57,821 nt of DNA, taken from contig JABITN010000161.1 of NCBI GenBank assembly GCA_018700525.1, positions 1 to 57,821 on the forward strand, read 5' to 3'. Position 1 is the stretch's first letter. The number at the start of each line of letters is the position of its first letter. This document shows positions 28,386-31,910 of this stretch, in pieces. The notes under the pieces were generated by a model. It did not search any database and had not been told where the DNA came from. It saw only the letters and a list, made by a program, of their open reading frames with translations. Both the position numbers and the translations under genes were made by a program. This stretch comes from Opitutales bacterium (GTDB taxonomy: Bacteria; Verrucomicrobiota; Verrucomicrobiia; Opitutales; Opitutaceae).

Positions 28386-29807
28386 TTATTGCAGGTGCCA
28401 GTCGGGGGCATCGGCCATAATGCTGGCATTGATTTCGAGGAGTTTGGTTTTGAGCGTTTCGACGGTTTCGGGCAGCACTTTGGCGAGATCGGTAGTTTGA
28501 TTGGGGTCTGAAATTAAGTCGTAGAGTTCGTAGTCCTTGTAGCCCCCTTCTTTGATCAAGGGAATCCATGCTTCATCGGTTTTGTTTGTAGAAGAAAGCT
28601 CTGGATTGTCCCGCTTGGCGACGAGGGAGTATTTGCCATCGCGTATCGCTACGATGGGTACGGATCGGTGAACGTGCCAGTAGAAGGGCTGTGAACGAGT
28701 GAACTCTGCAGGGTGACCCAGTAGCAATGGAGCGATGTTCGCGCCGTCGAGGTGACGATCGGTAGGGCGATCGAGATCGAGGAGGGAGCAGAGAGTGGGA
28801 AGGATATCGACTAGGCCAGTGGGTGTTTCAAGGGTTTTGCCTGCGGGAATGGTTCCGGGCCAATTGAAGATTCCAGGGACGCGCAGGCCGCCTTCCCAAT
28901 TGACGCCTTTTTGTCCGCGGAGGGAACTATTGCGGTTGCGCAGGTAAGAGCCGTTGTCGGAGGCATAGATGATGAGTGTATCTTCAGCGGGAGCTACCTC
29001 GTCGAGTTTCTGCTTTAGTCGAGCGATCGCTCGATCCGTGTTGTCGATGGTGGCCGAGTAAATGCTAGCGAGTTCCGTTTGGCCTTTAGGAAGGCCTTCG
29101 CTATGTTTTAGGTTTTGGTTGAATTCGACGATGTCATTTGGAGCAGCAACTTTTTGGTGAGGTTCGTGAAACCAGACATTGAGGAAAAAAGGGACGTCGG
29201 GGTCGCGATTGTTGTCGAGCCAGTCGATCGCTTCGTCGACCACGATTTGGCATGAATAGCCTTCGATCTCGCCGAGGGCTTTTCCATTACGAATGAAATT
29301 CGTCGGGTTGCGGTGACTGGGTTCAGCGTTGTTTGCTGTGGCGAACCAGTAGTCGAAACCATGCTGGGCAGGGGTTGGTTTATAATTGCTGTGTCCTTTG
29401 AAGGGCAGGCCTAGATGCCACTTTCCGATATGGGCGGTAGAGTAACCCGCTCCTTTGAGGATTTCGGCGATGGTAATTTCGCGTTCAAGCAGGTGCGATT
29501 TTTGGGTTTGGTCGAAAATCCAATTGTAAACGCCTGTCCGGATGTGTTGGCGCCCTGTTAGCAAGGTAGCACGAGAAGGGGAGCAGACTGCGCAACCTGA
29601 GTAGAAGACTTCGAACTTGGTGCCTTGCGCGGCGAGCGAATCGATGGCGGGAGTACGGACTGGACCGCCATAGCAACCGAGGTCGCCCGAGCCGAGGTCG
29701 TCGGCTAGCAAAATGACCACGTTAGGGCGGTCGGATTTCGCTTGGATGGAAGTCGCGAGTGTTGCGATTAGGAAGGCAGAAAGGGTAGTGAGGAGTTTGA
29801 TACGCAT
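28386..29807 (-). CDS. Secreted sulfatase (S1 family)
   Basis: A 473-residue exported sulfatase. The start MRIKLLTTLSAFLIATLATS (29807) gives a clear signal peptide; the open frame extends about 500 bases further upstream but that part encodes low-quality Arg/Ser-rich text over a stem-loop cluster and is not believed. The formylglycine motif is CSPSR in CAVCSPSRATLLTGRQHIR (Cys75), with metal ligands in VILLADDLGSGDLG and IIYASDNGSY. AHIGKWHLGLPFKGH carries the conserved active-site Lys/His. The C terminus has YSLVAKRDN and LYDLISDPNQTTDLAK. It follows the other sulfatase head-to-tail. Confidence 0.93.
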   Translation of the reverse strand: MRIKLLTTLSAFLIATLATSIQAKSDRPNVVILLADDLGSGDLGCYGGPVRTPAIDSLAAQGTKFEVFYSGCAVCSPSRATLLTGRQHIRTGVYNWIFDQTQKSHLLEREITIAEILKGAGYSTAHIGKWHLGLPFKGHSNYKPTPAQHGFDYWFATANNAEPSHRNPTNFIRNGKALGEIEGYSCQIVVDEAIDWLDNNRDPDVPFFLNVWFHEPHQKVAAPNDIVEFNQNLKHSEGLPKGQTELASIYSATIDNTDRAIARLKQKLDEVAPAEDTLIIYASDNGSYLRNRNSSLRGQKGVNWEGGLRVPGIFNWPGTIPAGKTLETPTGLVDILPTLCSLLDLDRPTDRHLDGANIAPLLLGHPAEFTRSQPFYWHVHRSVPIVAIRDGKYSLVAKRDNPELSSTNKTDEAWIPLIKEGGYKDYELYDLISDPNQTTDLAKVLPETVETLKTKLLEINASIMADAPDWHLQ

Positions 29808-30022
29808 TAGACTGGGATGTTCTTTGCGATCAAATTGAAGTAAATGAGGTCGAGGGCCAAGGGCTAAATTGGAGATGGTGTGGGAGGGCTGGGGTTTTGG
29901 GTTGGACAATCGAGTCCGGAGGCCTCGATCCATCTTCTGAAAATTGATCCAATTATTTTTTAAATCACGGAGTTCACAGAGGTACGGAGGAATTTGGTTT
30001 TGAGTTATAAAGAACCTTATTT

Positions 30023-30240
30023 GATCCCGCGCTCGTGGGATCATCCTAGCGTAGCGGTGACGTTTTAATAAAGGAATGACTGAGGATTTAGTCATTGAAC
30101 CCGCTGAGCGGGACCGAGGAGCCTTCCCGCCTTGGCGGGACGAGCCATTAAGGATCCGGCTACGCCGGAATAAAGGTTTTCGAAATGACTGGGACCTGCT
30201 CTGTAAGGACTTTCTTGATATGGCCGATCGGAAATCGGCC
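30023..30240. repeat. Array of six short stem-loops
   Basis: Six separate inverted repeats occur in 218 bases: GATCCC/GGGATC (30023-30042), AATGACT/AGTCATT (30075-30096), CCCGC/GCGGG (30100-30112), TCCCGCC/GGCGGGA (30125-30140), TCCGGC/GCCGGA (30155-30169) and GGCCGAT/ATCGGCC (30222-30240). The last belongs to repeat family A. The region lies between two co-directional minus-strand genes, after the 3' end of the DEAD-box gene and before the sulfatase start. Confidence 0.7.
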
Positions 30241-30271
30241 GCTACCATTTTGTTGACTTGGCTGGGTTTGG

Positions 30272-31756
30272 TTAATCGTTCCCTTTGAGTTTTTTGAGGG
30301 ATTGGGCCCATGGATTGGATGGGTCGAGTTCTGGGGCTTCTTCGGGCGGGCTTTCAATTGTAGCTGCGACCTTCTTTTCCGTTGGTTCTTCCTGAATTTC
30401 TGCAGGCTCGGGCTTGGGCTCTAGCGCTACTGTTACTGGAGCCGTTGGAGTCTCGTTAGTTTCGGCTACTTCGCTTTCTGGTAATTCTGCGGCGTTCTCT
30501 TGAGCGGCTTCGCGTTTGTTGTGGGCTTTTCGGGCGGCGGCTTCTCGGGATTTGTCCTTCTTGCTTTTGCGTTTGCCTTTGACGGGCGCAGTGGGGACAG
30601 GAATTGCGTCGGGGTCCCAGTTCTCAGGAATGAAGCCTTCGATGCGTTCGCGGTCGAGGGTTAGGTCGTGACGCTTTTCGATGAGCTGAAAGTGTCGATG
30701 TTCTTCGACGGTGACGAAGCTGATGGCGGTTCCTGGTTCGCCGGCGCGACCAGTGCGGCCGATGCGGTGAACGTAATCGGTCGGCGAACGGGGAAGGTCG
30801 TAGTTAATGACGCAGGGCAGTTGCTCGATATGTATTCCTCGGGCGGCGAGGTCGGTCGCCATGAGTACCTGTGTTTTGCCGTTCTTGAAGTTCTCCAATG
30901 CTCGAGTGCGCTGCTCTTGCTTGAGGTCGCCGTGCAGGACGGAGGCACGGATGCCTTGTTTTGTGAGCTTGGCGGTTACATTAGCGGCGCGGCGTTTGGT
31001 GGCGACGAATACGAGGACCCGCGACCACTCTTCGGTTTTCAACAAGTGGCGTAGAAGAGCGGTGCGTTTGTCTTGCTCTACTTCGATTGTTCGTTGGGCA
31101 ATATTCTCGGCAGGTTTCGATGCGACTTCGAGTTGGATCATTTCGGGGTTGTCGAGCAGTGTATCCGAAATTTGAATTACAGCCTCAGGAAAGGTCGCGG
31201 AGAATAGAAGGTTTTGTCGTTTTGCGGGAAGGAGCTTGAGGATGGCATTGAGCTCGTCGGCAAATCCGAGTGCGAGCAGGCGATCGGCTTCGTCGAGAAC
31301 GAGCATATTGATCTGGGAGATGCTAACGGCTTTCCGTTCGATCAAGTCCAGCAATCTTCCTGGAGTGGCTACGATGATGTCGCTTCCGCCCTGAGCTTTT
31401 TCGATTTGGGGGTCGATAGATATGCCACCGAATATGGTTAGGGTTTTGGGAGGCTGCGGCATCGCCTGACCATAATCTTGGATAGCTGCTCCAACCTGGT
31501 CGGCCAGTTCGCGTGTTGGGACGAGAATGAGGCTCTGCTCGGTTTGCTCGTTTTTCAGAGAGTTGGCGTATCGTTGGAGCATCGGGAGGACGAAAGCAGC
31601 GGTTTTACCTGATCCTGTCTGAGCTGCAGCCAATAGGTCTCTACCTTCTAGGACGAGGGGGATGGTTTTCTCCTGGATGGGCGTAGCGATGTCGTAGCTG
31701 AGATCTTCAAGTGAGCTTAGAAGGAATTCGGATAGTCCGAGTGAATCGAATGACAT
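30272..31756 (-). CDS. DEAD-box ATP-dependent RNA helicase (RhlE/DbpA-like)
   Basis: A 494-residue RNA helicase. Motifs in order are Q motif ATPIQ (24-28), Walker A AQTGSGKT (45-52), motif Ia PTRELA, GG, TPGR, DEAD (155-158), SAT (186-188), ATDLAARGIHI, and HRIGRTGRAG. The core ends near residue 370. The C-terminal 120 residues are Lys/Arg-rich, then Glu/Pro/Ala-rich low complexity, as in RhlE-type cold or ribosome-assembly helicases. The usual role is ribosome biogenesis or mRNA turnover. Its stop lies just beyond the stem-loop array. It sits beside recQ but its motifs are RNA-helicase type. Confidence 0.95.
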   Translation of the reverse strand: MSFDSLGLSEFLLSSLEDLSYDIATPIQEKTIPLVLEGRDLLAAAQTGSGKTAAFVLPMLQRYANSLKNEQTEQSLILVPTRELADQVGAAIQDYGQAMPQPPKTLTIFGGISIDPQIEKAQGGSDIIVATPGRLLDLIERKAVSISQINMLVLDEADRLLALGFADELNAILKLLPAKRQNLLFSATFPEAVIQISDTLLDNPEMIQLEVASKPAENIAQRTIEVEQDKRTALLRHLLKTEEWSRVLVFVATKRRAANVTAKLTKQGIRASVLHGDLKQEQRTRALENFKNGKTQVLMATDLAARGIHIEQLPCVINYDLPRSPTDYVHRIGRTGRAGEPGTAISFVTVEEHRHFQLIEKRHDLTLDRERIEGFIPENWDPDAIPVPTAPVKGKRKSKKDKSREAAARKAHNKREAAQENAAELPESEVAETNETPTAPVTVALEPKPEPAEIQEEPTEKKVAATIESPPEEAPELDPSNPWAQSLKKLKGND

Positions 31757-31910
31757 AAGAAGGGAGTGGTAGGGCGTTTAAGCTGTCGCAGCAACGGCAA
31801 ACTCTTGGAAAAGCGCGAGCCGAGACGTTTCGGAGCAACGTTGCGGGTTGAGAAGGGTGGATCTAGGTCTTCGGACTCGGTTGATTGAAGTTACCCGAGT
31901 TCTCTAAACC

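Follow-up and report, generated by a model that had tools for sequence, protein, structure and literature searches.

The question raised by this locus is what may be represented by six consecutive stem-loops with differing arms, packed into positions 30023-30240 of the window (the whole stretch of 57,821 nucleotides analysed here, which is contig C124 of a 4.8-Mb genome in 268 contigs, referred to as the own genome or G000). The neighbouring genes code for a sulfatase and a DEAD-box helicase, both on the minus strand and named from translations read by eye. A sequence-only reading had regarded the stretch as intergenic and without coding function, and this appears to hold: a mechanical 641-aa frame (28386-30311, minus strand) crosses the whole of it, but the sulfatase probably starts near 29808 with the signal-peptide-like MRIKLL..., as judged from the translation, and thus outside the stretch. 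The start of the orthologous sulfatase in genome G003 resembles this start at about 29808. Two other dispersed repeats lie close by. The hairpin AATCGAGTCCGGAGGCCTCGATCCATCTT at 29908-29936 has an exact 29-base copy in the own genome (C173, 36001-36029), a relative at 31858-31883 of the window and another in G003, where it is located 5' of the orthologous sulfatase gene, and a CACGGAGTTCACAGAGGTACGGAGG-like repeat at 29956-29997 has other copies in contigs of the own genome and in G006.

A scan for perfect stems (at least 6 pairs, loops of 1-9) yielded six non-overlapping hairpins:

30023-30042: first hairpin
30075-30096: second hairpin
30100-30112: third hairpin
30125-30140: fourth hairpin
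30155-30169: fifth hairpin
30222-30240: sixth hairpin

The series of stem-loops with differing arms is thereby confirmed, and the hairpins are not a chance series: 500 dinucleotide-preserving shuffles contained 0.39 hairpins on average and three at most, as compared to the six observed in 30023-30240, and when the whole window was scanned every 10 positions, all 12 of the densest 218-base stretches were found here, with five hairpins each. Structure prediction, which had been recommended as a check, gave a z value of -3.0 for the RNA fold of 30015-30250 on either strand.

The sequence-only reading had further assigned only the last stem-loop to a dispersed family. This is correct for a 317-kb sample of the own genome (20 fetched stretches, 7 of them chosen for earlier matches), in which plain dispersal is seen solely for the sixth arm sequence and each of the modules of hairpins 3-5 is found a single time, as counted on the given strand, but it does not apply overall, because hairpins 1 and 3-5 are parts of one dispersed element. 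In the relatives, the arms of hairpins 3 and 4 recur, with 30125-30140 being present exactly in at least seven places (G007, G009, G001). What had been overlooked is that the linkers, not the arms, are the conserved part. With positions 30060-30215 as query, mostly weak matches were obtained at E ≤ 10 in all 11 genomes of the genus, and the side-by-side reading of some of these showed that they have the linkers in common, but not the arms. The pattern GTCAYCGN{4,24}CTAGGA was found more often than its reversed control in G009 (71 vs. 5), G007 (26 vs. 2), G006 (26 vs. 7), and G003 (18 vs. 5); the own genome gave 4 vs. 4, and six other genomes of the genus were not clearly above the control.

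The unit of about 75 nt follows the plan GTCAYC-hp1-TAGGA-hp2-AATAAGGA-hp3-AATAAGGTT (hp, hairpin), in which the linkers are conserved and the arms vary among copies, yet covary. It consists of three hairpins, whose order is fixed across species. Full copies in G009 read GTCAYC-hp1-TAGGA-hp2-AATAAGGA-hp3-AATAAAG...CCTTATT-hp3'-TCCTTATT-hp2'-TCCTA-hp1'-GRTGAC. Of 171 halves, 129 have GTCATC or GTCACC as their foot, and the flanks 5' of GTCAYC are T-rich, with T at positions -5 to -1 in 79-101 of the 171. A covariance model of one half (R1; 81 positions, 22 pairs, structure set by hand) was made from 30 halves of G009, G007, G006, and G003, that is, from other genomes only and with no sequence of the own genome. 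It recognized two significant matches in the window, 30091-30176 on the plus and 29992-30061 on the minus strand, which lie back to back, the next match having an E value of 0.25. The features of the locus are as follows:

30015-30061, minus strand: left half-element (R1 match 29992-30061, 25.7 bits, E 8.5e-6)
30061-30056, minus strand: GTCACC of the left half
30055-30049, minus strand: mini hp1 of the left half, GCTACGC
30048-30044, minus strand: linker TAGGA of the left half
30043-30022, minus strand: hp2 of the left half, TGATCCC..GGGATCA
30021-30015, minus strand: linker AATAAGG of the left half
30062-30090, no strand: AT-rich spacer of the tail-to-tail pair, 29 nt
30091-30176, plus strand: right half-element (R1 match, 32.6 bits, E 6.1e-8)
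30091-30096, plus strand: GTCATT of the right half
30100-30112, plus strand: hp1 of the right half, CCCGCTGAGCGGG
30116-30120, plus strand: linker GAGGA of the right half
30125-30140, plus strand: inner stem of hp2 of the right half
30145-30154, plus strand: linker CCATTAAGGA of the right half
30155-30169, plus strand: hp3 of the right half
30170-30176, plus strand: linker ATAAAGG of the right half
30220-30249, minus strand: GTAG-type REP of a separate repeat family (GGTAGCGGCCGATTTCCGATCGGCCAT on the minus strand; hairpin 30222-30240)

The left half matches GTCAYCGN{4,24}CTAGGA exactly, but its hp3 is not recognizable and the corresponding part of the R1 match is unpaired. The right half has weak BLAST relatives in the own genome (C114), G006, G007, and G008. 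The hairpin at 30075-30096 (AATGACT..AGTCATT) is composed of the spacer and the start of the right half, and a similar spacer hairpin is present in G003 (C384). Six half-elements were folded as single-stranded DNA; three hairpins were obtained for the right half of the window (z -2.4), L102 (z -4.7), and L108 (z -2.8), whereas the minimum-energy folds of the other three differed, the left half of the window forming one hairpin at a non-significant z of -0.7 and L091 (z -2.7) and L196 (own genome, z -0.4) folding into structures other than three hairpins. It is scarcely credible that unrelated palindromes or REPs merely came to lie side by side by chance: the sixth hairpin does represent a separate REP and further dispersed repeats are located at 29908-29936 and 29956-29997, but both halves fit a model derived from other genomes and are adjacent in divergent orientation. 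Positions 30015-30176 therefore probably represent two half-elements in tail-to-tail arrangement, now decayed, of a non-autonomous mobile element that belongs to this Opitutaceae genus, accompanied by an unrelated GTAG REP at 30220-30249. With one half lacking hp3, the copy in the window is probably immobile.

As to the sixth hairpin, the REP carries GTAG at the 5' foot of its palindrome on the minus strand, and the palindrome falls into the 20-40-bp range of this class. The 317-kb sample contains 25 other matches, 16 of which form eight inverted (head-to-head) pairs, and the same REP occurs at one locus of G003 (L128 in C178), where it closely follows a RAYT-like frame (25.4 bits) that is truncated by the start of the contig. 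A composite of REP insertions, which had been named as an outcome speaking against a structured region, thus describes the stretch in so far as it is a composite of repeats; only one of these is a classical REP, the rest belonging to the three-hairpin element. A conserved copy of the locus in relatives, as had also been considered, was not observed: the locus is not conserved, and the helicase gene of G010, a genome with no R1 match at E ≤ 0.1, has an ABC-type ATPase gene as its neighbour (translation read by eye).

The distribution of the element was assessed with R1 at E ≤ 0.1 and up to 150 scored candidates per genome, which makes all counts in the genus lower bounds. At least 108 halves were found in G009, at least 29 in G007, 23 in G006, 22 in G003, 13 in G001, 9 in the own genome, 4 in G008, and 1 in G004, and none in G010, G005, and G002, so the element is present in 8 of the 11 genomes of the genus, the own one included, with from 1 to at least 108 halves each. 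Among 200 genomes of the family, matches at E ≤ 0.001 were obtained in at least eight, namely seven of the genus and, weakly (30.3 bits), G086 of a sister genus, where the relative shows a similar plan with AACAGGA linkers; among 387 genomes of the phylum, at least the own genome and G009 matched, in addition to one weak match (25.9 bits) in G516 from another family. These family and phylum counts are lower bounds even more so than those of the genus, as they were obtained with stricter filters (23 and 11 candidates). A stricter pattern applied to a collection of named genomes, from which records of the own genome may be left out, retrieved only contigs of Opitutaceae bacterium IP29b_bin.87 and uncultured Opitutaceae OX638348.1. 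A further linker-like motif, AACAGGAT, was seen in L108 and in the G009 loci L089-L106; it is found 21 times against once for the reversed control in 159 kb of G009 and 8 times against none in 29 kb of G007, is not enriched in the own sample (9 vs. 8), and is also used as linker by the weak relative in G086.

Covariation against relatives had been proposed as a check, its absence being taken as an argument against a real structure, and strong covariation was found for the three-hairpin element. In a MAFFT alignment not fitted to the structure, 84.0% of the cells were paired as compared to 67.5% in shuffles, 100 cells were doubly changed vs. 31.8 ± 4.4, and the covariation score was 0.381 vs. 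0.145 in shuffles and 0.164 for the best slid version; the weakest measure, further pair types, gave 36 vs. 31.1 and was attained by 15 of 500 shuffles. RNAalifold recovered only nine pairs from this alignment (A2), which is attributed to shifted gaps. The structure was for this reason defined manually, with one row and a scan of this alignment for pairs as the source, and the MAFFT test thus depends on that choice. In 150 copies aligned to the model, and thus fitted to the structure, 90.1% vs. 62.4% of the cells were paired and 770 vs. 257 doubly changed, with a score of 0.520 vs. 0.147. That the element is a dispersed and structured one is firmly established. Searches of Rfam 15 gave no match at E ≤ 1 in 29500-30800 and none at E ≤ 0.5 at the elements of six loci; three microRNA matches at L091 (1528-1692) are below the gathering scores and not located at an element, and were discarded.

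The covariation itself may be read in two ways. Among 39 row pairs of at least 85% identity, which share rows and are thus not independent and whose alignment is fitted to the structure, 33 of 718 ungapped cells were changed on both sides, 30 of them being paired in both rows, and 34 were changed on one side; by our own arithmetic, independent changes at the one-sided rate would lead to fewer than one two-sided cell in these row pairs. Such two-sided changes in near-identical copies can be due to selection, or to template switching or gene conversion at palindromes, which would rewrite both arms at once and maintain complementarity with no function behind it. This mutational origin is possible, if somewhat doubtful: the similar frequencies of two-sided and one-sided changes agree with it, as does L091, where a whole stem differs between copies otherwise about 90% identical, but it leaves the fixed linkers and the set order of three hairpins across species unexplained. 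Since it is compatible with mobility, it competes only with the selective part of the interpretation as a mobile element.

The arrangement of the copies was classified for 171 of 172 matches (150 aligned rows and 21 entered by hand), resulting in 40 head-to-head pairs, 17 tail-to-tail pairs, and 59 single halves, some halves being members of one pair of each kind; the match left out (L184, 657-738) would add one head-to-head pair and remove one single half. The loci were mostly fetched for their matches and therefore do not constitute a random sample. GTCAYC is intact at both ends in 24 of the 40 head-to-head pairs. The linkers of the two halves are complementary, as they must be in inverted halves, and this might be taken to indicate that paired halves form one long trunk helix with six side hairpins, the dimer being the functional structure. 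Such a "Christmas tree" is very unlikely and was rejected, as the Y base of GTCAYC does not covary: it matches in 12 of 24 usable head-to-head pairs as compared to 11.96 expected (a single position, the 16 of 40 pairs in which GTCAYC is not present at both ends being left out) and in 3 of 11 usable tail-to-tail pairs, and single halves as well as both pair orientations are common. Where tested, that is at this Y, the two halves behave independently.

Mobility of the three-hairpin element is well supported, since near-identical copies occur in unrelated flanks. L091 contains three copies of 89-95% identity within 1.6 kb, whose spacers and flanks share just a 15-base inverted match, and the two copies of L100 are 92% identical over 207 aligned bases, one of them carrying a 30-bp hairpin-bearing insert in the loop of hp1; comparable inserts can be seen in L160, L166, and L171. 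The most similar copies are often close together, so some could be local duplications. A putative orthologue in G003 and G007 (73-75% identical DNA) lacks the element that is found 3' of the gene in G009, but no base-exact empty site was obtained from these two, because homology ends with the gene and the junction is unreadable. Inspection of the flanks of the 40 head-to-head pairs by eye revealed no target-site duplication. Elements are also located 3' of a uronate isomerase gene (uxaC, translation read by eye) in G007, G003, and G006, where arrangement and distance differ; these copies are assumed to be separate insertions, with vertical inheritance as the alternative. Two further observations may be added. 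The half-elements of L210, L201, and L202 form a subfamily whose members share 94-96% identity, both within G006 and G003 and from one of these genomes to the other, at places where the upstream sequence is in part similar (TTGACTACGTTAAAAA-like); by comparison, genes of congeners examined at other loci are about 70-83% identical. In L094 (2265-2616), L206, L228, and L211, another palindromic element (GCGCATGCGCGTCAACTT...) is situated next to the three-hairpin element or within one of its hairpin loops.

With respect to the surrounding genes, 93 of 109 elements are free of overlap with ORFs of at least 100 aa; the one in the window is among the other 16, through an ORF whose 5' extension is probably spurious. 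Convergent genes flank 16 of 44 head-to-head pairs, two minus-strand genes 11, two plus-strand genes 6, and divergent genes 6, and 5 have no clear context. ORFs reading towards such a pair end at a median of 36 nt from it (49 distances, uncontrolled for intergenic length), and of the single halves flanked by co-directional genes, 16 share the orientation of the genes and 6 are opposed to it (p 0.052). The sequence-only reading had proposed a structured RNA 3' region, a series of transcription or decay barriers, or an insertion hot spot, which is correct in part: the stretch is made up of inserted repeats, and a role in 3'-UTRs is possible. The half-element would then act as an RNA which shields the ends of mRNAs or halts decay or transcription, with mobility being secondary and selection on the three hairpins keeping the element in place. 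As judged from the sequences, such an RNA role is rather unlikely as the main explanation. The short distance from stop codons, the 16 of 44 pairs between convergent genes, the 16 to 6 orientation, and the compensatory changes in the arms agree with it, and a similar placement of REPs was taken as a hint of RNA function in the part of PMC3733652 considered here. However, the orientation bias fell from 15:2 to 16:6 when more copies were included and the ORF rule was slightly altered, and was discarded as proof of RNA function; the same placement, for which intergenic length is uncontrolled, is expected if inserts into promoters are purged; 3 of the 11 genomes of the genus lack a match at E ≤ 0.1; and neither the element of the window nor the relatives tested match Rfam. 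A recurrent neighbour gene was considered as well: the largest cluster (26 of 109 elements) includes the frame of the sulfatase in the window and was not counted, as there was no control for the frequency of sulfatases.

A partner enzyme was sought among Y1 transposases (PF01797, Y1_Tnp), for which 30 matches were found in 8 of the 11 genomes of the genus. No R1 match was present within about 1.5 kb on either side of 20 of the 30 loci, and RAYT or other Y1 transposases were therefore rejected as neighbours of the element. Their presence does not track the element strictly either, as G008 has four halves and no Y1_Tnp match, and G004 five Y1_Tnp matches and one half. Two of the three matches in G009 are RAYTs with REPs of their own, and none of the 12 largest clusters of neighbouring genes looked transposase-like by eye. 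As separate observations, the RAYT genes of L116, L123, L117, L121, and L122 are each flanked by their own REP type, e.g., GTAGGGCCGGCGCTTGCGCC and GGTGGAACGCGACGTCCCGGCGCG in G009, and Y1 transposases of 331-341 aa in L109, L110, L112, L113, and L118 have short inverted GGGTCAG-like repeats in their flanks.

A view on known systems shows both similarities and differences. The attC sites of integrons are folded single-strand hairpins with variable arms that are recognized by structure. The present element shares the hairpins with variable arms, and recognition by structure may apply to it as well, but it differs in lacking the R''/R' boxes (RYYYAAC / GTTRRRY), which are absent from 30012-30260 and from all of 40 full relatives; the earlier statement that no attC-like core is present thus stands, and identity with attC was rejected. 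MITEs are recognized by their conserved sequence, terminal inverted repeats, and target duplications, unlike the three-hairpin element, whose conservation is confined to the linkers and which shows no duplication by eye. O. terrae, from which REPs have been described, belongs to the Opitutaceae. In being non-autonomous, intergenic, and able to fold, the element resembles MITEs and other small bacterial repeats, as far as these are covered by the consulted part of PMC2229807.

The closest resemblance is to REPs, which, according to the portion of PMC3733652 used here, occur as singles and as head-to-head and tail-to-tail dimers near gene ends, and include GTAG REPs in the verrucomicrobium O. 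terrae. REPIN hairpins show compensatory changes (PMC3116915, in part), and TnpA-REP binds folded single-stranded REPs, reading GTAG and the palindrome to differing degrees (PMC8266576, in part). Like GTAG REPs and REPINs in the cited sections of these three papers, the present elements are short, multi-copy, mostly intergenic non-coding hairpin repeats, which occur as singlets and as dimers of both orientations, have a conserved foot 5' of a hairpin, and are often located near gene 3' ends. Unlike GTAG REPs as described there, the unit consists of three hairpins and four conserved linkers (about 75 nt) rather than one 20-40-bp palindrome, its foot is GTCAYC, its arms are freely replaced, and no copy lies beside the 20 Y1 transposase loci. 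Having no GTAG foot, no single palindrome, and no RAYT neighbour among these loci, it is not filed as a REP. The CGTC-tagged REP super-family, as treated in the excerpt of PMC3733652, also features GTC in the foot, predominantly head-to-head dimers, and no reported association with a transposase, but its members contain one stem of 8-9 bp instead of three, and the base before GTC in the present element is C in only 48 of 171 halves and T in 79. A literature search retrieved no description of a three-hairpin family in the partial texts covered, which is no proof of absence.

The element thus seems best interpreted as mobile but non-autonomous and similar to REPs, with three hairpins per unit. 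A trans-acting enzyme would recognize its folded single-stranded DNA and may read the linkers and the presence of hairpins instead of the letters of the arms, in the way in which TnpA-REP recognizes GTAG together with the palindrome, and inserts would be tolerated mostly behind stop codons. Tentatively, it may even represent a new class of bacterial mobile DNA recognized by shape, with three ordered hairpins, conserved single-stranded linkers, arms that are replaced wholesale, both at once, and loops accepting hairpin inserts, moved by a putative non-adjacent enzyme. Because shape and linkers are kept while the letters drift, and repeat finders look for conserved sequence, the family is nearly invisible to BLAST, and counterparts may exist elsewhere. 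The approximately one hundred natural variants in a single genome provide a data set on the bases needed by a hairpin-reading mobile system, and the same variants could inform whether compensatory changes stem from selection or from template switching.
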